NCBI GenBank assembly: GCA_014382705.1
Contig: JACNJE010000122.1
Coordinates: 1 to 38,948, forward strand
DNA: 38,948 nt
Direction of reading: 5' to 3'
Source: Verrucomicrobiota bacterium
GTDB lineage: Bacteria > Verrucomicrobiota > Verrucomicrobiia > Limisphaerales > UBA1096
A program made the position numbers and the translations under genes. The notes below the pieces were generated by a model, which was not told the DNA's origin, did not search any database, and worked only from the letters and a program-made list of their open reading frames with translations. Positions within the stretch are counted from its first letter, which is position 1, and every line of letters starts with the position of its first letter. Shown here piece by piece: positions 15,660 to 38,948 of this stretch.

Positions 15660-16472
15660 CTAACCGAGACCGTCTTCGTAGTCTGCGTTTGCCAAGGCCG
15701 CTTGGCCAAGCGCTTGGCCAAGTGGGTCGATTTCCTTGGCGCTGAAGCCAAGGTGCGAGTGCCGGCGCCACCCCTCGGCATGCTGAAACTTCCCCGACGC
15801 CTGGCCAAGCGCCAGCGACATCGCCTCCATCGTCTGCAGGTATGAGTCCAGCCCCTGGCTCACGTCGAGCCATTCTTTCTGGCTGCGGTGCGCCGCAAGC
15901 GCCCTCCGCTTGGTTTCGAGCACGCTCGTCGTGTCAACAAACAGCCCGGGCACGACTCGCCGCCGCAGGCCGTCCCGCAGGCCGTGAGGCATCCCGTGGT
16001 ACACCGCCACGTCGCTCTCCACTGGCGCTCTCTCCGGCGCCACCCCGAAGTTCGGCATGCCGCGCGCAAAGGCGGCTGTCACGGCCAGACGCGAGGTGTT
16101 CATGTGGTCCTCCATGTAATCCTCCGGCGAGTGCGTCAGCACGATCGACGGGTCGACCTCGCGAACGATCGAGGCCAAGCGGCGAAGGTGAACTTCATCG
16201 TAAAAAACCTCGAGGTCACGCGAGAACGGCGGATGGAAGGTTGCCCCGAGGATCGTGGCCGCTTCCCCCGCCTCGGCCAGGCGCTTGGCCTCCGTCTCTT
16301 CCGCGCCCAGGCGGACGCTGCCGCAGTTGCCGCTGGAGAGGTTGAGGGAGTGTATTTCCCAGCCGGCCTCGCGCAGCAGCAGCAGCGTGCCGGCCATCAT
16401 GAACTCGATGTCGTCCGGGTGCGCGGCGATGGCGATGGCGACTCGCCGGGATTGGTCGGTCGGGTCAGGCAC
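15660..16472 (-). CDS. PIG-L/LmbE family zinc-dependent deacetylase
   Basis: The 270-residue member of the family that removes N-acetyl groups from sugars (as in GlcNAc-PI, mycothiol or bacillithiol precursors). The metal-binding AHPDD motif is at residues 17-21, and the later EDHMNTSR supplies the other histidine. It starts with GTG at 16472, overlapping the stop of the Gfo/Idh gene by 8 nt, so the two are translationally coupled and probably act on the same sugar compound. The C-terminus carries LGQALGQA, encoded by two tandem iterated palindromes (15701 and 15713), which looks like palindrome-driven rather than functional sequence. The exact substrate is unknown. Confidence 0.9.
   Translation of the reverse strand: MPDPTDQSRRVAIAIAAHPDDIEFMMAGTLLLLREAGWEIHSLNLSSGNCGSVRLGAEETEAKRLAEAGEAATILGATFHPPFSRDLEVFYDEVHLRRLASIVREVDPSIVLTHSPEDYMEDHMNTSRLAVTAAFARGMPNFGVAPERAPVESDVAVYHGMPHGLRDGLRRRVVPGLFVDTTSVLETKRRALAAHRSQKEWLDVSQGLDSYLQTMEAMSLALGQASGKFQHAEGWRRHSHLGFSAKEIDPLGQALGQAALANADYEDGLG
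15699..15724. repeat. Tandem pair of iterated palindromes
   Basis: Two copies of CTTGGCCAAG at 15701-15710 and 15713-15722, sharing flanking CG bases, inside the 3' end of the deacetylase gene. This is the closest spacing of two exact copies in the window. Confidence 0.9.
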
Positions 16473-17505
16473 GCAGCTCGGAAAGTTTTACCGGCCGGTT
16501 TTTCTTCGCGGACAGGTCGGCGGCGAAGATGACCTCATGCGTCCTGGCCGCCGTGGCGAGGTCGGTCAGCGGCATCGTTTTGCCCCTGGCCAGGGCGGTG
16601 AAAAACGCCTCGAATTGCGTCTGGAACGGGTGGTCGCTCACGTCGCCCGAGTCGACCAGCTTCATCGACAGTTCGCTCCACTTGTCCTTGTTGAGTCCGC
16701 CGATCTTGTTCGAGTGAAACTGGTTGTCCCTCAGGCTGCCCTCGCTGCCGACGAGGTGCGTGTGAAAATAATACGGCTGGATGCAGTCGATCACCGACGT
16801 GGTCTTGCCGATGCGGCCGTCCTTGAACTTGAGGATCGTCACGCTGCTCGTGTCGTACTCGTATTTCTTGAAATCCCGGTTGGCCGAGCCGGTGGAGTAG
16901 CTGCTGACACTCTCCACGTCGGTGCCCATGCAGAGCAGCAGCGCGTCCAGCGCGTGGCAGCCGGCCGAGAGCAGGCTGCTGCCGCCGGCGTTGCGCTTGG
17001 TGTTCCAGCGGAACTGCCCGTACCACGGCCCGATGCCGTGGTAGTAATCCACCTCGCCGTAATGGATGGTGCCCAGCAGCCCGCGGTCGATTACCGCCTT
17101 GGTGGCGAGGAACTGGCTGGAGTGGCGGCACTCAAAACAGACGCATGTCTTCACGCCGGCCTTGGCCACGGCCTTTTGCATCGCCCGCAGTTCCTTCAGG
17201 TTCAGCGCGAGCGGCTTTTCGATGATGAGGTGCTTGCCCGCCTCGGCGGCGGCGATGACCTGCCGTGCGTGCTGGTACGGATAACTGCACACCGAGATCA
17301 CGTCGATCGCCGGGTCGGCGAGCATTTTTTTGAGGCTGCCGTGGCATTGTATCTCGCTGCCATGTTTGGCGCTGAGTTCCGCCGCGTCCAGTTTGCGCGA
17401 CGAGCAGACTGCCGTGACTTGGCCCTGGCCGGTGGCGTTGATGGCGTCGATGTGCGCGCCGGCCACCCACCCGTAGCCAATCACGCCGACGTTGAATTTT
17501 TTCAT
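16465..17505 (-). CDS. Gfo/Idh/MocA family NAD(P)-dependent oxidoreductase
   Basis: The 346-residue sugar-type dehydrogenase has a Rossmann start VGVIGYGWVAGAHIDAI (dinucleotide-binding glycines), the family motif IIEKPLA with the catalytic Lys, and a C-terminal alpha/beta domain including WNTKRNAGGSSLLSAGCHALDALL, typical of the substrate-binding half. I start at the ATG 17505, where the Rossmann strand begins two residues later; an upstream start would add an unlikely 18-residue leader. No signal peptide is seen, so it is cytoplasmic. It is coupled to the LmbE-type deacetylase by an 8-nt overlap, consistent with successive steps on an amino sugar or inositol-like substrate. No copy of the iterated palindrome lies in this gene. 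Confidence 0.92.
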   Translation of the reverse strand: MKKFNVGVIGYGWVAGAHIDAINATGQGQVTAVCSSRKLDAAELSAKHGSEIQCHGSLKKMLADPAIDVISVCSYPYQHARQVIAAAEAGKHLIIEKPLALNLKELRAMQKAVAKAGVKTCVCFECRHSSQFLATKAVIDRGLLGTIHYGEVDYYHGIGPWYGQFRWNTKRNAGGSSLLSAGCHALDALLLCMGTDVESVSSYSTGSANRDFKKYEYDTSSVTILKFKDGRIGKTTSVIDCIQPYYFHTHLVGSEGSLRDNQFHSNKIGGLNKDKWSELSMKLVDSGDVSDHPFQTQFEAFFTALARGKTMPLTDLATAARTHEVIFAADLSAKKNRPVKLSELRA

Positions 17506-17612
17506 GAGTCCCGCATTCTCCGGAACCCCGATGCCACAACGAACCCGGCCCGTTGTCAACCTAAGCGTGAGCGCGATCGCAGGATGGGGCAGCGAGTGTT
17601 GGTGTCGTTCGA

Positions 17613-18321: not shown

Positions 18322-19299
18322 ATGTCAAACTCCAAAACAAACTCCCCCGACTGCGGTTGCCAGTCCGGCGACTGCCAGCCCTCCCGCCGCCAGTTTTTTA
18401 GCCGGGGCGCACAGTCCATCGCCGCCATCGGCGTGGCGGTGCAATCCGGCGCGACTGCCCGGGCGGCCCGCCCCAAGCCAGACGGCTGGCTGCCGACCGG
18501 CCTTGGGCAGACGCGCGACATGGCCGTGGCCGACGGCGTGGTTTACGTCGCCGGCGACTCGGCGGTGGCCGTGCTCAAGCCAAGCGGCGAGCCGGTCCGG
18601 CGGATTCCGTTTGCGGAAGCGCCGCGCTGCATCGCGGTGGCCAAGCGGCGGCTGATCGTCGGCCTGCGCGACCGGGTGTTGCGCTGCGATCTCGACGGCA
18701 AAACGGTTTCCGAGACCAAGCGCTTGGCCAAGGGTGCCGCGTTGACCAGTTTGGCCGTGGCGGCGGACGGGACGATCTTCGCGGCCGATGGCGGCAGCAG
18801 CTCCATTTGGCGCATCAGCCCCGACGGCGGTGTGCTCGACCGCCTCGCCGGCGGGAAGGGCGGGCGGTTCGCCGTGCCCAAGTCGTTCTTCCCGATCACA
18901 TGGGCCGGCGGCGGTTTGGTGGTCGCGCACCCGGGCCGGCACCGCGTCGAGCGTTACGATGCCGACGGTGAGTTGCTGGCGCGCTGGGGCAAACGCTCCC
19001 GCGGGCTCGACGGTTTCTCCGGTTGCTGCAACCCGGTGAGCGTGGCGGTGACCGGCAGCGGCGAGTTCGTGACTGCCGAGCGCGGCCAACCCCGCATCAA
19101 GCTGTTTGACAAGGCCGGGAATTTCCGCGCCGAGATCGCCGGGCCGGAGGCGTTCGACGCCACCGAGCACGAGCAGGTCGATACCGACGCCGAGTTGGCC
19201 ACCTGCCAAAACGGCGGCATCGAGGTGGCACTGCTCGGCGAACAAGTCGTGGCGCTCGACCACACCACCGCCTCCTTCCGGCTGTTCGACTTGGCGTGA
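18322..19299 (+). CDS. Tat-exported beta-propeller (NHL-like) protein with Cys-rich leader
   Basis: The 325-residue product starts at the ATG 18322. It opens with a short Cys-rich leader (Cys11, Cys13, Cys18), then a twin-arginine signal SRRQFFSRG (residues 21-29) and a modest hydrophobic segment. The mature part is a beta-propeller of NHL/SMP-30 style with repeats such as DMAVADGVVYVAGDSAVAVL and SLAVAADGTIFAADGGSSSI. A vicinal Cys pair occurs in FSGCCNPVSV (near residue 235), a block shared with the next protein (WGKR-R-G-GF--CCNPV). Tat export hints at folding or cofactor loading in the cytoplasm. The stop overlaps the GTG of the next gene (GTGA, 19296-19299). The function is unknown; a periplasmic sensor or redox role is my inference. 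Confidence 0.8.
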   Translation: MSNSKTNSPDCGCQSGDCQPSRRQFFSRGAQSIAAIGVAVQSGATARAARPKPDGWLPTGLGQTRDMAVADGVVYVAGDSAVAVLKPSGEPVRRIPFAEAPRCIAVAKRRLIVGLRDRVLRCDLDGKTVSETKRLAKGAALTSLAVAADGTIFAADGGSSSIWRISPDGGVLDRLAGGKGGRFAVPKSFFPITWAGGGLVVAHPGRHRVERYDADGELLARWGKRSRGLDGFSGCCNPVSVAVTGSGEFVTAERGQPRIKLFDKAGNFRAEIAGPEAFDATEHEQVDTDAELATCQNGGIEVALLGEQVVALDHTTASFRLFDLA

Positions 19300-20870
19300 A
19301 CTTTCGCACGAAATTTTCCGTGTGCCTCGCCGCACTTGGCCTCGGCATCACGCTTGGCCAAGCGGCGGAGGACGCCAGGCTGGAAGGCACGCACGCCGAG
19401 ATCGAGCCGATCCAGTTTGGCGCTCATTCCAGTGGCGAGGCGATCACCCTCAAGACGATCGCGATGAGCCGCGACGGCGATTTGCTCGTCGGCATCTCAT
19501 GGGGCGAAGGCAAAATGGAGTTTGCCGCGCCACGCAGTGCGGACGATCCCGGCCCCCGCGATCGGCGCTCGCGGGGCTCCGGCGGTGAACGCCGTCCCGG
19601 CGGAATGATGCGGGCGTTGCCGGTTTTGGTGGCGCTCGACGCGGACGGCGACGGCGAGCTTTCGACCGATGAAATCGAGAGAGCCGAGGCGGCCTTGGCC
19701 AAGCTCGACAAAAACGGCGACGGCAAATTGAGTGGCGACGAGGTGCGGCCCTCCCGTGGCGGCAGCCAGCGCGAACCCCGCCCCGGCGGCCAAGCGCAGG
19801 GCAGCGAAAAGTCGGGCGAAGAGATCACGCGCATTTTGGAGTTTGGCACCGAGGACGACATCGTCGGCTTGGCCCGTGAGGCGAGTCCGCGACAGTTCAT
19901 GGAGGCGTTGCGCGAGATGGGTTCCGACGACCGGCGCAAGATTATGAGTGCGTTGCCGCGTGAGTTGCGAAGCCAGTTGGGGCGGTCGCGCGGCCAGTCC
20001 GGCGGTCGGCGTCCCGGCGGTCGGGACCGTGGCGAAAGCGGTCGCGGCGGCGGCGGCGAGCGGCGGGGCAATCGTGGGCCGCTCGCGGTGGACGATCTGT
20101 TCGACCACACTTACGGCATTCGCGTCATCGGCCCGGACGGCAGCGTCAAGGCCGAGTGGCCGATGCCGGATGACGGGCCGCACCCGAAAATGATCCACGC
20201 CTGCGGCGACGGCACGGTGTACGTCGCCGGCCACGGCAAAATCGCCTCGTACGACAAGAGCGGCAAACGCCTCGCGATGGCCGACATTGACACGCTCAGC
20301 GGCGAAAAGTCACTCGCGGCCGGGATGTTCGTCAGCGACAAGCACGTGTTCCTTGCCGTCGGCATGGGCAACAGCATGCGGGCGACGGAGGACATCTACC
20401 GGTTCAACCGCGACCTGACCGGGGCGAAAAAAATCATCGAGCAACAGTACGGCTGCTGCAGCCATATCGACCTGCAGGTGATGAACGGCGAGCTGCTCAT
20501 CGCCGAGAACTCACGGCACCGCGTCAACCGTTTCGACCTCGACGGCAAGCCGCTCGGCAAGTGGGGCAAGCGCGACCGCACCGGCATCGAGGGCTTCGCC
20601 GCCTGCTGCAATCCGGTCAACATCGACATCGGCCCCGGCAACATCGTTTACACCGCCGAGTCCGGCATCGGCCGCATCAAGACTTACACGCCCGGCGGCA
20701 AGTTCCTCGGCGTCGTCGGCTATGTGGACACGACCGAGTTCGACCGCGGCAGCCGTCTCGCCGCGCAAACCTGCTACATTCCGATCGAGGTCAGCCCGGA
20801 CGCCAGCCGCGTTTACGTGATGGACGTCCGCGCCAACCTCATCCGCGTGCTCGCCCCAAAAGAGAAGTGA
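19296..20870 (+). CDS. EF-hand plus NHL-type beta-propeller secreted protein
   Basis: A GTG at 19296 overlaps the previous stop. The 524-residue product has a Sec signal peptide (LAALGLGITLGQAAED). Two EF-hand calcium loops, DADGDGELSTDE and DKNGDGKLSGDE, lie near residues 114-152. A Gly/Arg-rich low-complexity linker follows (about 232-262), then a beta-propeller (265-524). The propeller carries two vicinal Cys pairs, YGCCSHID and FAACCNPVNI, the second within a block shared with the preceding gene's product, so the two propellers are probably paralogues. Calcium binding by EF-hands is known; that it gates the propeller is inference. It overlaps the next gene by 4 nt (GTGA at 20867-20870), so all three are translationally coupled. 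Confidence 0.85.
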   Translation: MNFRTKFSVCLAALGLGITLGQAAEDARLEGTHAEIEPIQFGAHSSGEAITLKTIAMSRDGDLLVGISWGEGKMEFAAPRSADDPGPRDRRSRGSGGERRPGGMMRALPVLVALDADGDGELSTDEIERAEAALAKLDKNGDGKLSGDEVRPSRGGSQREPRPGGQAQGSEKSGEEITRILEFGTEDDIVGLAREASPRQFMEALREMGSDDRRKIMSALPRELRSQLGRSRGQSGGRRPGGRDRGESGRGGGGERRGNRGPLAVDDLFDHTYGIRVIGPDGSVKAEWPMPDDGPHPKMIHACGDGTVYVAGHGKIASYDKSGKRLAMADIDTLSGEKSLAAGMFVSDKHVFLAVGMGNSMRATEDIYRFNRDLTGAKKIIEQQYGCCSHIDLQVMNGELLIAENSRHRVNRFDLDGKPLGKWGKRDRTGIEGFAACCNPVNIDIGPGNIVYTAESGIGRIKTYTPGGKFLGVVGYVDTTEFDRGSRLAAQTCYIPIEVSPDASRVYVMDVRANLIRVLAPKEK

Positions 20871-22834
20871 TACGGCACGCCGGTTTTTTTCTCGCACTTG
20901 CGCTTGGCCAGGCGGCTGGCGAGCCGGTGCAGGTGGTCGTGATGGATCCACTCGCGCTGCCGCTTTCCTGCTCCTGCGTCGACGGCGTTGGCCAACGCCG
21001 CTACGACCCACTCGCCGCCCATCTCGAGCAAGCGACCGGCCGCCGCTTCAAGCTGACGTTTGAGGAAAGCCTCGACCTCGCGCTGCGCCGCCTCCGCTCC
21101 AAGCCGGACTTCATCATCGGCAAGGACGCGATGGTGCGCTTCGACGCCAAGCGACTTGAACTGACGGTCACGCCGCTCGCCGATCTCACCGATCGCGCCG
21201 GCCGCACGACCCAGCGCGGCGTGTTCCTCGTCCGCACCGGCGATCCCGCCAAGCGGCTCGCCGATCTCTCCGGCCGCGCCGTCATGCTTGGCCCGGCGGA
21301 GGAGGCCGAGACACATCAGGCCGCCAAGGCCGCGCTGCAACAGGCACGCTTGGCCAAGCCGGCCAAACTCGACTCGGCCGGGGCGATCGACTCCGGCGTG
21401 CTGGCGTTGGGCGACGGCGAGGTGGCTGCCGCCGTGGTGCCGGATTATTTGCCGCCGCTGCTCGTCGGCTGCGGCAAGGTGGAACCGGGCGCGGTGCGCG
21501 TACTGGCCAAGACGCCGCCCGTGCCCGGCGTGCGGCTGTTCCGCACCGGCGCGACCGACGACACGTTGGCCAAGCGCGTGGCGGCGGAGGTCACCGCGTT
21601 GGCCAAGCGGAACGAGTTGCTCGCCGCACTCGAGTCGGCCAACGGCTTCATAAAGCCGCTTGGCCAAGCGGCGGCGTGGGCGGATTGGCGCGGCCCGGGC
21701 CGCCTCGGCCAGGCGTCCAGTTTGCCGAAAAAACTACCCGATGCGCTGCGCAAGATTTGGTCGGCCAAGCTCACCGGCCCGGCCGTTGCCGGCCCGGCGG
21801 CCACGGCGACGCGCGTTATCATCCCCGACAAAAACAGCGACGCCACCCGCGACATTTTCCGCTGTCTCGACGCCGCCGACGGCAGCGAAGTTTGGCACCT
21901 GGACTACGCCGCCGCCGGCGACATGGATTACAGCAACTCGCCCCGCGCAACGCCGGTCATTCACGACGGCCTGGTTTATCTGCACGGCGCGCTGGGCGAT
22001 TTGCACTGTGTCCGGCTCGACACTGGCGCGGTCGTTTGGCGGACGAATTATTACCGCGACTACGGGGCCAAACTGCTGACGTGGGGCTCGAGTTCGCCGC
22101 CGCTGATCGTCGATGACAAACTCATCATCAACCCCGGCGCTCCCGCCGCCTCCGTGGTCGCGCTCGACCGAAAAACCGGCAGGCTAATTTGGAAAACACC
22201 CGGTCACGCCGCCGCCTACTCGGCGTTTGTCGTGGGGGAACTGGGCGGTCGGCGGCAGATTCTTGGCTACGACTCGGCGAGCCTCGGCGGCTGGGATCCG
22301 GCCACCGGCCAGCGGCTGTGGGAATTCGTGCCGCGCGAGGGGGCGGACTTCAACGTCACCACCCCGCTCATCCACGTCGGCCAACTGCTGCTCGCCACCG
22401 AGAACAACGCGACGCGGCTGCACGGTTTTTTGCCCGATGGAAAAATCAATCCCAAGCCGGCCTTGGCCAACGCCAGCCTCGCGCCGGACTCCTGCTCGCC
22501 GGTCATTGTTGGTGGCCGCCTGTTCGCCACCGCCTACGGCGAGATGTACTGCCTCGACTTGAAGGATGGATTGAAAACGGTGTGGGTGGCGGAGGACGAC
22601 ATGTTTTTCGACCACTCAAACGTGATTGGCGGCAACAGTCGCGTGCTGGCCTGGACAAACAGCGGCGACCTGCTCCTGCTTGACGCCGCTGCCGATGCAT
22701 TCGAGCCACTCAGCCGGTTGCGCCCCTTCGGCGAAGCCAGCGCCGACTCGATGTCCCACCCCGCCATCGTCGGCAATCGCCTCTACCTCCGAGGCCCCAA
22801 CGAATTCGCCTGCTTTGCGTTGGAGGAAAAATGA
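20867..22834 (+). CDS. PhnD-like substrate-binding domain fused to a PQQ-type beta-propeller
   Basis: The start is a GTG at 20867, in frame and overlapping the previous stop; 655 residues. Signal peptide GFFLALALGQAAG is followed by residues 20-265, which resemble the phosphate/phosphite/phosphonate ABC-transporter periplasmic binding family (YDPLAAHLEQATGRRFKLTFEESLDLALRRLRSKPDFIIG, later GVLALGDGEVAAAVVPDYL). A CSC motif (Cys35, Cys37) lies near the mature N-terminus. Residues about 270-655 are a PQQ/BamB-like propeller beginning WADWRGPGRLG and containing repeats such as CLDAADGSEVWHLDYAA and ALDRKTGRLIWKTPG. No permease or ATPase gene is nearby, so the binding domain probably serves sensing or scavenging rather than uptake. 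The fusion and operon position are what make it unusual. Whether PQQ is bound is not known. Confidence 0.85.
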   Translation: MIRHAGFFLALALGQAAGEPVQVVVMDPLALPLSCSCVDGVGQRRYDPLAAHLEQATGRRFKLTFEESLDLALRRLRSKPDFIIGKDAMVRFDAKRLELTVTPLADLTDRAGRTTQRGVFLVRTGDPAKRLADLSGRAVMLGPAEEAETHQAAKAALQQARLAKPAKLDSAGAIDSGVLALGDGEVAAAVVPDYLPPLLVGCGKVEPGAVRVLAKTPPVPGVRLFRTGATDDTLAKRVAAEVTALAKRNELLAALESANGFIKPLGQAAAWADWRGPGRLGQASSLPKKLPDALRKIWSAKLTGPAVAGPAATATRVIIPDKNSDATRDIFRCLDAADGSEVWHLDYAAAGDMDYSNSPRATPVIHDGLVYLHGALGDLHCVRLDTGAVVWRTNYYRDYGAKLLTWGSSSPPLIVDDKLIINPGAPAASVVALDRKTGRLIWKTPGHAAAYSAFVVGELGGRRQILGYDSASLGGWDPATGQRLWEFVPREGADFNVTTPLIHVGQLLLATENNATRLHGFLPDGKINPKPALANASLAPDSCSPVIVGGRLFATAYGEMYCLDLKDGLKTVWVAEDDMFFDHSNVIGGNSRVLAWTNSGDLLLLDAAADAFEPLSRLRPFGEASADSMSHPAIVGNRLYLRGPNEFACFALEEK

Positions 22835-22858
22835 TACGCTGTCGCGACCGAAGCGACT

Positions 22859-22879
22859 CCCTCTCCCAGCGGGAGAGGG
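22859..22879. repeat. REP-like hairpin just after the PhnD-propeller gene
   Basis: Perfect 9-bp arms (CCCTCTCCC with GGGAGAGGG) and a 3-nt loop, 25 nt past the stop. There is no T run, so it is a REP-like or RNA-stabilising hairpin rather than a clear terminator. It begins the 815-nt gene-free stretch 22835-23649, which holds repeats and one gene relic but no gene I can support. Confidence 0.8.
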
Positions 22880-22927
22880 GTGGGGAGAGGGAGAACGCAC
22901 TGCCTTTGAAAAAAAACTCGGGAGGTT

Positions 22928-22975
22928 TCACCCTCATCCGGCCTGCGGCCACCTTCTCCCTGAGGGAGAAGGAAT
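22928..22975 (+). repeat. 48-nt direct repeat, copy 1
   Basis: Identical over 48 nt to 23545-23592. It contains two hairpins: GGCC-TGC-GGCC (22940-22950) and a 9-bp stem with TGA loop (22952-22972). Similar sequence is common among intergenic REP-like repeats of GC-rich bacteria (recalled, not searched). Confidence 0.9.
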
Positions 22976-22985
22976 CAGGCGGGAT

Positions 22986-23085
22986 GCGCTTGGGCAAGCG
23001 CAAGATGGGGAAGGGGAATATCCAATGTCGAACAAGGAATGTACAAATTCCAAGTGTGCCATTCGGAGACGCACCAGCGTCTTGG
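22986..23085 (+). repeat. Mosaic intergenic repeat, copy A, first part
   Basis: Clearly homologous to 29580-29682: a near-palindrome GCGCTTGGGCAAGCGC at 22986-23001 (one mismatch from the iterated palindrome), a left inverted-repeat arm (23021-23056) and the run to GCGTCTTGG at 23085. About 270 nt of other sequence (23086-23355) then separate this from the second part, whereas the two parts are contiguous in copy B. Confidence 0.75.
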
Positions 23086-23544: not shown

Positions 23545-23592
23545 TCACCCTCATCCGGCCTGCGGCCACCTTCTCCCTGAGGGAGAAGGAAT
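23545..23592 (+). repeat. 48-nt direct repeat, copy 2
   Basis: Identical to 22928-22975, same orientation. The two copies flank a 569-nt segment containing mosaic repeat copy A and the aldolase relic. Confidence 0.9.
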
Positions 23593-23649
23593 GCTCACAC
23601 CCCATTCGCGTTGCTTCGCGTCCATTTGCGGTTGAAAAACACCGGGCCT

Positions 23650-24390
23650 TCAGCCCAGGGACTTGAGGACTTCGGGGTCGCGGACGTCGATCCAGCGACC
23701 TTCGATTTTTGCGCCGGCGATCGGTTCGCCCGCGTCGATCATCGTCTCAATGGCGTCGGTCAACTCGTATTCGCCGCGCGGGGATTTTTGCAGCTTGGCC
23801 GTGTGGTCGAACACGACGGGGCGGAAGATGTAAATGCCGGCGTTGTACCACATTGGGTCACCCTCCTTCAGCCAGCCGTCGGCGCGGAGTTGGTCGAGTT
23901 GCTCGACGCTCGGTTTCTCGACGATTTTGCGGAGGCAAAATTGATCGTCGAAAAAGTTGATCGCGCCCTTGGTCACATCCTCGCCCGGCGTCACGGTGAT
24001 GAGGCCGGAAAACTCCCCTTGGCCAAAGCGTTCGACCATGGCCGCGTACGTCTCCGGGCGCACGAGTATGTCGCCGTACGTCAGCAGGAACGGGTCGTCG
24101 CCGACGAAGCGCTTGGCCAATTCCGGTGCCTTGCCGGTGCCGTCCTGCACCTCCTGCCGCGCGTAGTTGATCGAGAGGCCAAGCGCCGAGCCGTCGCCGA
24201 AATGTTGCTCGATCATCTCCGCCTTCCAGCCGGTGATGAGGCAGAACTCGCGCACGCCCTGCGCGGCGATGCCGCTGATGATGTGCTCGAGGATCGGCCG
24301 GCCCTCGACCGGCAACATCGGCTTGGGCAACGCGTCGGTGAGTGCGCCCATTCGGGTGCCTTTCCCGGCGGCAAGGATGACGGCTTTCAT
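23650..24390 (-). CDS. Sugar-phosphate nucleotidyltransferase
   Basis: The 246-residue NTP-transferase makes NDP-sugars from NTP and a sugar 1-phosphate. The signature MKAVILAAGKGTRMGALTDALPKPMLPV is at the N-terminus (nucleotide loop and the Lys-Pro motif). GDILV at the metal site, IVEKPS, YNAGIYIFRP and RWIDVRDPE follow. There is no left-handed beta-helix, so it is the short form like glucose-1-phosphate or mannose-1-phosphate nucleotidyltransferases; which sugar is unclear. I start at the ATG at 24390, directly before the conserved motif. That ATG overlaps the stop of the ApgM gene (ATGA), so it is the second gene of a coupled pair. Confidence 0.92.
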   Translation of the reverse strand: MKAVILAAGKGTRMGALTDALPKPMLPVEGRPILEHIISGIAAQGVREFCLITGWKAEMIEQHFGDGSALGLSINYARQEVQDGTGKAPELAKRFVGDDPFLLTYGDILVRPETYAAMVERFGQGEFSGLITVTPGEDVTKGAINFFDDQFCLRKIVEKPSVEQLDQLRADGWLKEGDPMWYNAGIYIFRPVVFDHTAKLQKSPRGEYELTDAIETMIDAGEPIAGAKIEGRWIDVRDPEVLKSLG

Positions 24391-25610
24391 GCGCCGAACT
24401 TGTCGAACATCAACGCATTGGCCTGCATGAGGCGGATGAGGTGCCTGGCCTCGATGATGCCGAGCGAGCCTCGATTGGCGTGTGTCTCGGTGAAGCGATC
24501 GAGCTTGTCGGAGCCGCTCGCGGCCGAGTGCAGCAACACCGGCTGCGGATGCCACGAGTGGCCCTTGAGCGCGCACGGCGTCGAGTGGTCGCCGGTGATG
24601 GCGATGACGTCCGGTTTTTTCTCGAGCAGGATCGGCAGCGCCTTGTCGAAGTCCTCGATCGCCTTGGTCTTGGCTTCGAAGTTTCCGTCTTCGCCGTACA
24701 TGTCGGTGTATTTGTAGTGGATGAAAAAATATTCGTAGTCGTCGTAAAGCTCTTTGTATTTTGCGAACTGCTCCCCGATCGTCTGCGGGCCTTCGTGCTT
24801 GGTCATGCCGACGAGTTGGGCGAGGCCCTTGTACATCGGGTATACGGCGAGGCAGGCGGGGCGCATGGCGTAGCGCTCGGCGAACATCGGGATGTCCGGC
24901 TGATGCGCGATGCCGCGCATGAGGAAGCCGTTGGCCGGCTCCATGCCGGCGAGCAGCGGCAGGGCGGCCTCGTAAAACTGGCCGATCAGCTTGGCCGCCT
25001 TTTGCGCCTTGGGGCAGTTGGGATCGTCCGGCTGCGACTCGGCGATCGGCAGGCCTTCGCGGTGCGGGTCGGTGTCGCTCAACGGCCCGGCCAGATCGGC
25101 CCCGCGAAAGAGGATGACAAAGCGATGGCCCTTGCCCGGTGTGATGACGATTTCCGCGTCGCCAATCTGCTTGATGTTCTCGGTAAGTTTAGCGCAACGC
25201 GCCTCGCACAGTTCGGTCTCGATGCGTCCGGCGCGCCGGTCGGTGACGAGGCCGTCGGCGTCGAGGGTGCAAAAATTGGCGCGGGCGGCGACATCGCCCG
25301 GCTGCAATTCCAACCCGAGGCCAAGCGCCTCGATGACGCCGCGGCCGACCTCGACTTCCAGCGGGTCGTAGCCGAACAGCCCGAGGTGGCCGGGGCCGCT
25401 GCCGGGCGTGATGCCGTGCGCGGCCGGGATCAACCGCCCCTGCGCCGACTCCTTGGCCAAGGCGTCAAGGTTGGGCGTCACCGCCGCCTCGAGCGGGGTC
25501 TTGTAATCCGTGGCGGCCGTGGCGATATCGCCGAGGCCGTCCATCACCAACAGGGCCATCTTGGCCCCATTCTTCAAAGTCAGGTCAGAGTATACCGAAT
25601 CGATGCTCAT
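24387..25610 (-). CDS. apgM: ApgM-type 2,3-bisphosphoglycerate-independent phosphoglycerate mutase
   Basis: The 407-residue cytoplasmic glycolytic enzyme interconverts 3- and 2-phosphoglycerate. Motifs of the archaeal-type iPGM branch of the alkaline-phosphatase superfamily are present: LLVMDGLGD (metal Asp24), THPNLDAL-like TPNLDALAKES, then GSGPGHLGLFGYDP with the phosphorylated Ser near residue 71, and the C-terminal metal block ITGDHSTPCALKGHSWHPQP. The length matches the family. It is the first gene of a coupled pair with the nucleotidyltransferase. The class II aldolase 4 kb away is another glycolytic gene. A related family of phosphonate metabolism enzymes shares this fold, but the motif order favours ApgM. 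Confidence 0.93.
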   Translation of the reverse strand: MSIDSVYSDLTLKNGAKMALLVMDGLGDIATAATDYKTPLEAAVTPNLDALAKESAQGRLIPAAHGITPGSGPGHLGLFGYDPLEVEVGRGVIEALGLGLELQPGDVAARANFCTLDADGLVTDRRAGRIETELCEARCAKLTENIKQIGDAEIVITPGKGHRFVILFRGADLAGPLSDTDPHREGLPIAESQPDDPNCPKAQKAAKLIGQFYEAALPLLAGMEPANGFLMRGIAHQPDIPMFAERYAMRPACLAVYPMYKGLAQLVGMTKHEGPQTIGEQFAKYKELYDDYEYFFIHYKYTDMYGEDGNFEAKTKAIEDFDKALPILLEKKPDVIAITGDHSTPCALKGHSWHPQPVLLHSAASGSDKLDRFTETHANRGSLGIIEARHLIRLMQANALMFDKFGA

Positions 25611-37099: not shown

Positions 37100-38948
37100 A
37101 TGAGTGAAGCCAAGAACACCGATCCGCTCAAGGAGCTGGATTTGGATTTGGAGTTTCTCCCCGCATGGGCGCAGAAACCGAACGACGCCAAGCCGTACGC
37201 CGACTTTGCCGGCGAGGAAAGGCCCCGGGGCCGCGGACGCGGCGACTGGGGAGACCGCCCTCCGCGGCGGCGTGACGACAACCGCAGCCGCGACTTCAAG
37301 GGCCGCGACACGAAAGGCCGCGGCGACCGGGATCGCAACCGCGATGGCGACCGCCGGGATGACCGGCGTCCGAAATTTCAAAAGCGCGACGGCAAACGGC
37401 CGTTCGACAAAAAGGGAGGCGCCCGCCGGGACGCCCCGCCGCCGCGCCCGCCGCTGGAGCTGGACGTGGCGATTCAGCCGGAGAAGCAGGGCGTCGAGTC
37501 ACTCGCCCGGCAGATCAAGCACACCGGCCGCGCCTATCCTCTGTTCGACATCGCGCGGCTGATCCTCGCCAAGCCGGAGCGTTACCTCGTCCTCCTCAAG
37601 ACGCGAAAAAAAGAGGACGGCTCCGCCGCCCAGCCACTGTTCTTCTGCCAGGTGGACGAGACGGTTTGGCTCTCCGAGGACCAGGCGGTGGACCATGTTC
37701 TCGCCCGGCACTTCGACACGTTTTACAAGACCGACAAAACCGAGATCGATCCGCCCAAGGGCACCTACACGTTCGTGGCGCAGTGCGGCATGAGCGACGA
37801 AATTCTCGGGCCGCCGAACTACCACGGCTACCAGGACAAGCTGCGCGCCCTGCACGCGAGCCGGTTCGCGCGCCTGCCGTTCGACGTCTTCAAGTCCCGC
37901 GTCAAGATCGTCCACGACGAGGAGGTGGTGAAGCAGTGGCTCGACGAGCAGAGCTGGAAGACCGAGTACATCGCCATCAACCTGCCGGAGGAAGTCCGGC
38001 TCGAGTCGCGCGCGGCCGTCCGCGACCATTTCCGGCAGCACCACCTGGCCAATGTCGTCACCGGCGTGGATGACGTGGCGCTCAAGGCCAGCGTGTTCAG
38101 CAAAAAAACCCCGCCGCGCATGCAGAACCTCGTCCGCTACGAACTCGACGACCAGCGGCGCTTCCCGCTGAAGATCGTCAATCTGCTCAGTCAGGAGTTC
38201 AGCAGCCACGGCCTGCAATTTTTCAAGCGCAAGAAAAGCGTCACCCACGTCTCGGTGTCGCGCCCGCATCATTTGAACCTCGAACAAACCCCGGTGAGCG
38301 ACAGCATCCGTGACATCGTCACGTTCGTTGTCGAGAACCGGGACTGCACCCGCCGGATGATCCTCGACCGGTTCGCCCCCGAGCCGGACAAACCGGAAAG
38401 CGCCAAGGCAACCCCCGAGGGGGATGCGCCAGAGGCGGAGCCGCCGCTTTCCCCGGAGCGCACCGCTGTGCTAAGCGACCTGCATTGGCTCGTGCACCAG
38501 GGCCACGTGGTCGAGTACGCCAACGGCCAAATGGAGATCGCCCCCAAGCCGCAGCCGCCGCAGCCGAAAAAGAAAAAGCCGAAACCGGAGCAGAAGCCCA
38601 AGGCCAACAAACCCGAAACGCCCGAATCGGGAGGGGCGAGTTCCCCCTCGCCCCAAACCCCGGCGGATGCCCCCGCCGTCGAGGAAGCCAAGCCGGCCGA
38701 AACGCCGGAGCCAAGCCCCGAGCCCCCGGCCTCGGAGGTCAGCGATACGACCGAAGCGTCCGAGCCAGACCAAGCGCTTGGCCAAGAGCCCGAGCCAACC
38801 GAGCCAACCGAGCCCCCGGCCTCCGAGGCTAGCGACGCGACCGAAACTTCTTCCGAGTCGAGTCAAGCGCTTGGCCAAGCGGATGCGCCGACCGAGTCGA
38901 CCGAGTCGGCCGAGTCGGCCGAGCCGACAGAGACCGACGCTGCGGAGA
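37100..38948 (+). CDS. Large charged protein of unknown function (3' end outside the window)
   Basis: The frame is open from the ATG at 37100 to the last base, at least 616 residues, partial. Residues 1-40 are acidic; about 45-115 are Arg/Asp/Gly-rich and low-complexity (R-D repeats), typical of nucleic-acid-binding disordered regions. Residues about 125-440 are folded, with HTGRAYPLFDIARLILAKPERYLVLLK, CQVDETVWLSEDQAVDHVLARHFDTFY and an arginine-rich middle; a wing-like segment near 390-480 (RDIVTFVVENRDCTRRMILDRF, then LSDLHWLVHQGHVVEYANGQ) looks like a helix-turn/winged domain. The tail from 485 is Pro/Glu/Lys-rich with Glu-Ser repeats and two iterated palindromes coding QALGQ (38777, 38870). 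An RNA-binding role is inference from composition. Confidence 0.8.
   Translation, partial: MSEAKNTDPLKELDLDLEFLPAWAQKPNDAKPYADFAGEERPRGRGRGDWGDRPPRRRDDNRSRDFKGRDTKGRGDRDRNRDGDRRDDRRPKFQKRDGKRPFDKKGGARRDAPPPRPPLELDVAIQPEKQGVESLARQIKHTGRAYPLFDIARLILAKPERYLVLLKTRKKEDGSAAQPLFFCQVDETVWLSEDQAVDHVLARHFDTFYKTDKTEIDPPKGTYTFVAQCGMSDEILGPPNYHGYQDKLRALHASRFARLPFDVFKSRVKIVHDEEVVKQWLDEQSWKTEYIAINLPEEVRLESRAAVRDHFRQHHLANVVTGVDDVALKASVFSKKTPPRMQNLVRYELDDQRRFPLKIVNLLSQEFSSHGLQFFKRKKSVTHVSVSRPHHLNLEQTPVSDSIRDIVTFVVENRDCTRRMILDRFAPEPDKPESAKATPEGDAPEAEPPLSPERTAVLSDLHWLVHQGHVVEYANGQMEIAPKPQPPQPKKKKPKPEQKPKANKPETPESGGASSPSPQTPADAPAVEEAKPAETPEPSPEPPASEVSDTTEASEPDQALGQEPEPTEPTEPPASEASDATETSSESSQALGQADAPTESTESAESAEPTETDAAE

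Follow-up and report, generated by a model that had tools for sequence, protein, structure and literature searches.

A three-gene unit encoding two cysteine-rich NHL propellers and a PhnD-PQQ fusion protein in Verrucomicrobiota: a candidate exported metal- or redox-handling module

Results

Organization of the three-gene unit

The window, by which we mean the whole 38,948-nucleotide stretch of verrucomicrobial DNA analysed here, carries three co-directional genes (P1, P2 and P3) on the forward strand at positions 18322-22834, and open reading frame analysis showed both of their junctions to be GTGA overlaps, with P2 starting at 19296 and P3 at 20867. A sequence-only reading of this DNA had described the three genes together with their domains and cysteine motifs, all of which were recovered by sequence inspection and Pfam searches. 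Coordinates below are those of the window; propeller types A, B and C and the profile A5 are those used in the following sections.

18322..19299, +, P1, NHL propeller of 325 residues, predicted to be Tat-exported and related to the type-A CC-NHL propellers (open reading frame, Pfam, tree)
18352..18375, +, leader cysteines C11-x-C13...C18 of P1, ahead of the Tat motif and present in most genus orthologues too
18385..18399, +, twin-arginine motif RRQFF of P1, conserved in the genus
19024..19029, +, C235-C236 of P1 (GFSGCCNPV), pair found in 38 of 38 aligned propellers
19296..20870, +, P2, predicted exported NHL propeller of 524 residues with an EF-hand/low-complexity insert, GTGA overlap with P1
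19509..20081, +, P2 insert (residues 72-262) with two EF-hand loops, between two strands of blade 1 (Pfam, model)
20454..20459, +, C387-C388 of P2 (YGCCSH), loop before the inner strand of blade 4, 25 of 25 in types B, C and P2, 0 of 13 in type A and P1
20604..20609, +, C437-C438 of P2 (FAACCNPV), loop before the inner strand of blade 5, 38 of 38
20772..20774, +, C493 of P2, loop before the inner strand of blade 6, with a cysteine one alignment column away in 21 of 21 of types B and C
20867..22834, +, P3, fusion of a PhnD-like domain and a BamB/PQQ-type propeller, 655 residues, GTGA overlap with P2 (Pfam, fold)
20924..21658, +, PhnD-like domain of P3, residues 20-264 (Pfam PF12974, 1.2e-20; profile A5 matches PtxB/PhnD structures)
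20969..20977, +, C35-S-C37 of P3 at the mature N-terminus of the PhnD-like domain, invariant in A5
21470..21472, +, C202 of P3 (LLVGCG), invariant in A5
21674..22831, +, PQQ/BamB-type propeller domain of P3 (Pfam, fold), encoded separately at 11 planctomycete loci

The conserved genes bordering the unit (16465-17559 and 23650-24576) lie on the opposite strand, so that P1-P2-P3 forms a candidate self-contained three-gene transcript, and no transporter gene (permease or ATPase) occurs between them. The order P1-P2-P3 was identical in same-genus genomes wherever contigs reach. Of the two overlaps noted earlier, both of which are present in the window, that between P2 and P3 was retained at every genus locus spanning the junction, whereas that between P1 and P2 is missing at two loci (L065 and L067), where a TAA codon closes P1 and the P2 start lies about 20 nt beyond it. 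Because the genes around the unit are also syntenic throughout the genus, gene order at this level is weak functional evidence, and it was discarded as support for the unit.

Two minor features adjoin the genes. On the minus strand upstream of P1 (17590-17940), the raw sequence reads as a possible ParE/RelE-type toxin with partner remnants, and after P3 a short repeat, CTCTCCC...GGGAGAGG / CACCTTCTCCCTGAGGGAGAAGGA, occurs at 22850-23000 and again at 23550-23600 and looks REP-type.

Conserved cysteine loops of the NHL propellers

P1 gave Pfam matches to NHL, SGL and phytase-like families, and the structural model of P2 comprises 24 strands arranged as six four-stranded blades, with NHL domains as the top Foldseek matches. 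The P2 insert matched EF-hand_5 above the cut-off (2.4e-6), and its two loops, DADGDGELSTDE and DKNGDGKLSGDE, carry calcium ligands, so calcium binding is predicted by motif; NCBIfam matches of P2 to XopAW and lanmodulin were rejected as generic EF-hand matches far below the cut-off. Among the aligned P2 relatives the insert is confined to the genus, none outside it having an equivalent, and EF-hand repeats are also found in several other proteins of the same genome.

The vicinal cysteine pairs singled out in the sequence-only reading are indeed conserved. The CCxP pair occurs in all 38 aligned propellers, and the second (GCC) pair in all 25 of types B, C and P2, with none among the 13 of type A and P1; a third cysteine is found in 21 of 21 propellers of types B and C and is offset by one column in P2. 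According to the strand list of the P2 model, C387/388, C437/438 and C493 sit in the loops entering the inner strands of blades 4, 5 and 6, respectively. In standard propeller topology, these loops share one face with the b-c loop, and the model suggests that the cysteine loops and the b-c loop of the EF-hand insert lie on one face of P2. C103, C235, C236 and C295 of P1 occupy loops equivalent to the P2 cysteine loops, as judged from the P1 sequence only.

The PhnD-like domain and the PQQ-type propeller of P3

The N-terminal domain of P3 matched PF12974 (Phosphonate-bd) with an E-value of 1.2e-20 and a score of 74.4 against a cut-off of 27, and its profile matched the structures 5jvb and 5o2j of the same domain family. 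PtxB and PhnD bind their ligand through an STS motif, a histidine and tyrosine residues (PMC5700983). The STS motif aligns with E-A-E in profile A5, in which E148 (numbered as in the window's P3) is invariant, and the CxC motif is found at all 17 type-C planctomycete loci; one P3 homologue (L118) has no CxC. Most homologues outside the genus have an extra cysteine in this domain, at the column aligned with the motif histidine of PtxB. Glutamates at the STS position argue against an oxyanion ligand and would fit a cation or soft-metal site. Since E-A-E stands in place of STS, and since the CxC and the later cysteine are conserved instead, phosphonate binding is unlikely; the phosphonate/phosphate-type ligand read earlier from the domain is thus not upheld, and a phosphonate-binding annotation would mislead for a PF12974 protein that has lost this motif.

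The C-terminal domain of P3 matched PQQ_2 (2.5e-21), with Foldseek ranking BamB first, above dehydrogenases, and with the NCBIfam dehydrogenase model TIGR03075 scoring 41 bits against a cut-off of 480. No PqqE was found above the cut-off in 21 genus genomes, several of them incomplete. The simplest reading is that this propeller serves as a scaffold without PQQ. PhnD and PQQ are encoded by separate consecutive genes at 11 planctomycete loci (L209, L211, L213-L218 and L220-L222) and by a fused gene at six (L210, L212, L219 and L223-L225); because the two are adjacent where they are separate, P3 represents a fusion of two operon partners.

Conservation of the gene set beyond the genus

P3 homologues from outside the genus, drawn from a genome-collection scan and phylum samples, showed about 37-50% identity and came from Verrucomicrobiota, Planctomycetota and one record each named Kiritimatiellota and Armatimonadetes. 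A double-CC NHL gene lies directly upstream of PhnD-PQQ at 28 of the 31 loci outside the genus whose upstream sequence reached far enough (L081, L082, L108-L112, L114, L115, L119, L120, L126 and L209-L224; Verrucomicrobiota, Planctomycetota and Armatimonadota); the three exceptions are L107, L117 and L225, and L118, L122, L124 and L125 fall outside this count. At the non-genus loci the module has no obligate extra neighbour and no other family recurs widely, the biggest other group being a sulfatase-like gene at six loci (named by eye). Likewise, no transporter gene family recurs there, in agreement with the earlier remark that the PhnD-like domain comes without transporter genes. The NHL-PhnD-PQQ core is a real functional unit, because it is kept together across several phyla. 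The proposal that three families stay together therefore holds for the P2-type/P3-type pair; P1 is a lineage-specific addition that belongs to the unit in the window's genus only.

Relatives encoded with Fe-S partners

Propellers of the same kind occur in two further gene arrangements. Type A clusters (L083-L090 and L176) run from a PQQ propeller through a CC-NHL propeller, often with a Tat-like leader, a Tat-type 4Fe-4S protein and a NapH-like membrane protein to a PQQ membrane protein, and in some cases NuoE/NuoF-like genes follow. Type B operons (L167-L172 and L226) have the order CC-NHL, PhnD with CxC, Tat 4Fe-4S protein and NapH-like protein; near two of them, L171 and L172, reading the sequence by eye suggested ArsR-like, DsrE-like and HdrA-like genes. 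The arrangement in the window is that of type C plus P1. In a maximum-likelihood tree of the propellers, P2 falls inside type C (100/100), P1 groups with type A (98/96) and type B forms a single group (96/90). P1 is thus related to propellers whose gene neighbours encode a Tat 4Fe-4S protein and a NapH-like membrane protein.

Searches for ferredoxin (4Fe-4S) and NapH-like genes gave no match in G000, and of the 21 genus genomes 20 were without a match; the only genus genome with Fe-S genes (G017) has them accompanied by its own type-A propeller. A dependence of the unit on Fe-S partners in the window's genus was rejected because of the missing matches in 20 of 21 genomes.

Discussion

Comparison with known systems

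We found no description of this gene combination in the open-access papers searched, in keeping with the view that it is not a described system. The PhnD-like domain belongs to the same family as PhnD and PtxB but differs from them in having E-A-E for STS, in the gained CxC and later cysteine, and in being fused to, or encoded beside, a propeller without an ABC transporter. Similarly, P1 and P2 share fold and repeat pattern with the six-bladed NHL propellers of Thin, TRIM2/3/71 and PknD, whereas the propellers of the module are predicted to be exported and carry an invariant CCxP loop, to which the P2 type adds a second CC pair and P2 itself an EF-hand insert in blade 1. The C-terminal domain of P3 has the fold of the BamB/PQQ propellers (PF13360) but is fused to a PhnD-like domain and has no BAM context. 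As in NapG/NapH-type quinol-linked modules, genes for Tat 4Fe-4S and NapH-like proteins accompany those for relatives of P1, P2 and the PhnD-like domain; the window itself has no such genes, and searches for them came up empty in 20 of the 21 genus genomes.

Proposed function and alternative explanations

We propose, with a probability of roughly 0.4, that the unit acts as an exported module in which thiolates handle a metal or a redox group. P1, P2 and P3 would be exported and assembled as a complex in which each propeller brings its cysteine loops together on a single face. There the cysteines would bind either a soft metal ion or a cofactor (metal or Fe-S), or would form a reactive dithiol. 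The PhnD-like domain, its phosphonate pocket replaced by cysteine and acidic residues, may capture or pass on the same ligand, with the PQQ-type propeller acting as a docking scaffold without PQQ and the EF-hand insert of P2 as a calcium-dependent lid over the cysteine-loop face; in the relatives, electron exchange with quinone would fall to the Tat 4Fe-4S and NapH-like proteins. Support comes from the co-conservation of the genes, the fusion, the conserved cysteines, the lost phosphite motif and the Fe-S context of the relatives. Counting against the proposal are three P3 homologues without a CC-NHL gene upstream (L107, L117 and L225), the loss of the CxC in L118, a stand-alone PhnD without either partner (L174), and the window's genus itself, which is without the Fe-S partners and has no additional PhnD-domain cysteine at the PtxB histidine column. 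No transporter, kinase or PQQ synthesis gene accompanies the module. Of the periplasmic sensing or redox complex suggested by the sequence-only reading, the sensing role finds no support, as neither a kinase nor a regulator accompanies the module, and a redox or metal role appears favoured by the cysteine loops and by the relatives beside Tat 4Fe-4S and NapH-like proteins.

A purely structural role of the cysteines, with vicinal or interblade disulfides stabilizing exported propellers of a surface binding or adhesion complex to which the EF hands add calcium stability, seems somewhat doubtful to us. The predicted export, the position of the cysteines in loops, the EF-hand repeats in several other proteins of the genome and the lack of any recognised catalytic motif would all suit it, but the absolute conservation of the CC pairs and a CxC in a separate protein exceed the needs of stabilization, relatives are associated with Tat Fe-S proteins, and P1 is predicted to use Tat export, the route of proteins folded before export. 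It is also unlikely that the unit serves to scavenge or detoxify extracytoplasmic metals or metalloids that react with thiols (arsenite, mercury, copper or zinc), the PhnD-like domain being the metal binder: resistance genes, a permease and a regulator are absent beside the window unit and do not recur at type-C loci. This sets a limit on an idea to which the CxC and C202 of the PhnD-like domain, the CC pairs of the propellers, the acidic residues in place of STS and the ArsR-like regulator near the type-B operons of L171 and L172 (by eye) lend some weight, as does AioX, an arsenite-binding protein of the PhnD family.

Two further explanations were rejected. That P3 serves an orphan system for phosphonate/phosphate uptake as its substrate-binding protein, the propellers being accessory scaffolds, is highly improbable: the PF12974 match and the solved PhnD/PtxB structures as nearest neighbours point that way, but the ligand STS motif is replaced by E-A-E, the domain is fused to a propeller, and transporter genes do not recur near its copies. 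Equally remote is a PQQ-dependent dehydrogenase with P3 as quinoprotein and P1 and P2 as electron-transfer partners. Methanol dehydrogenase has a vicinal cysteine disulfide over PQQ and P3 has PQQ repeat matches, but BamB rather than dehydrogenases gave the best fold matches, the dehydrogenase model scored far below its cut-off, the 21 genus genomes yielded no PqqE above the cut-off, and the CC pairs lie outside the PQQ-type domain.

If the thiolate site of the proposed module is real, it would represent a new use of the beta-propeller as a metal or redox centre, and the unit is in any case a compact one from poorly characterised phyla in which a gene fusion ties three families together. As a tentative extension, the module might exemplify a new class of complexes in Planctomycetota, Verrucomicrobiota and relatives that are exported and handle cofactors or metals. 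In such complexes, the face of a dual-CC NHL propeller would bear a novel metal or Fe-S centre bound by thiolates, a PhnD-like protein repurposed from oxyanion to metal or cofactor binding would serve as supplier or sampler, and a ferredoxin/NapH-like pair would provide a quinone link in some lineages.

A highly iterated palindrome in the genome

Apart from the unit, the window contains 32 copies of a highly iterated palindrome, CTTGGCCAAG (for example at 894-903, 18723-18732 and 38870-38879), which we take to resemble the cyanobacterial HIP1 palindrome; none of the open-access papers searched pairs a highly iterated palindrome with Verrucomicrobia. For TTGGCCAA we counted 41 occurrences in the window, where 0.8 would be expected. 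The 10-mer CTTGGCCAAG is present in 3274 copies in the 4.0 Mb genome, compared with 19 for the reversed control, and in 41 to 2731 copies in the 20 other genomes of the genus.
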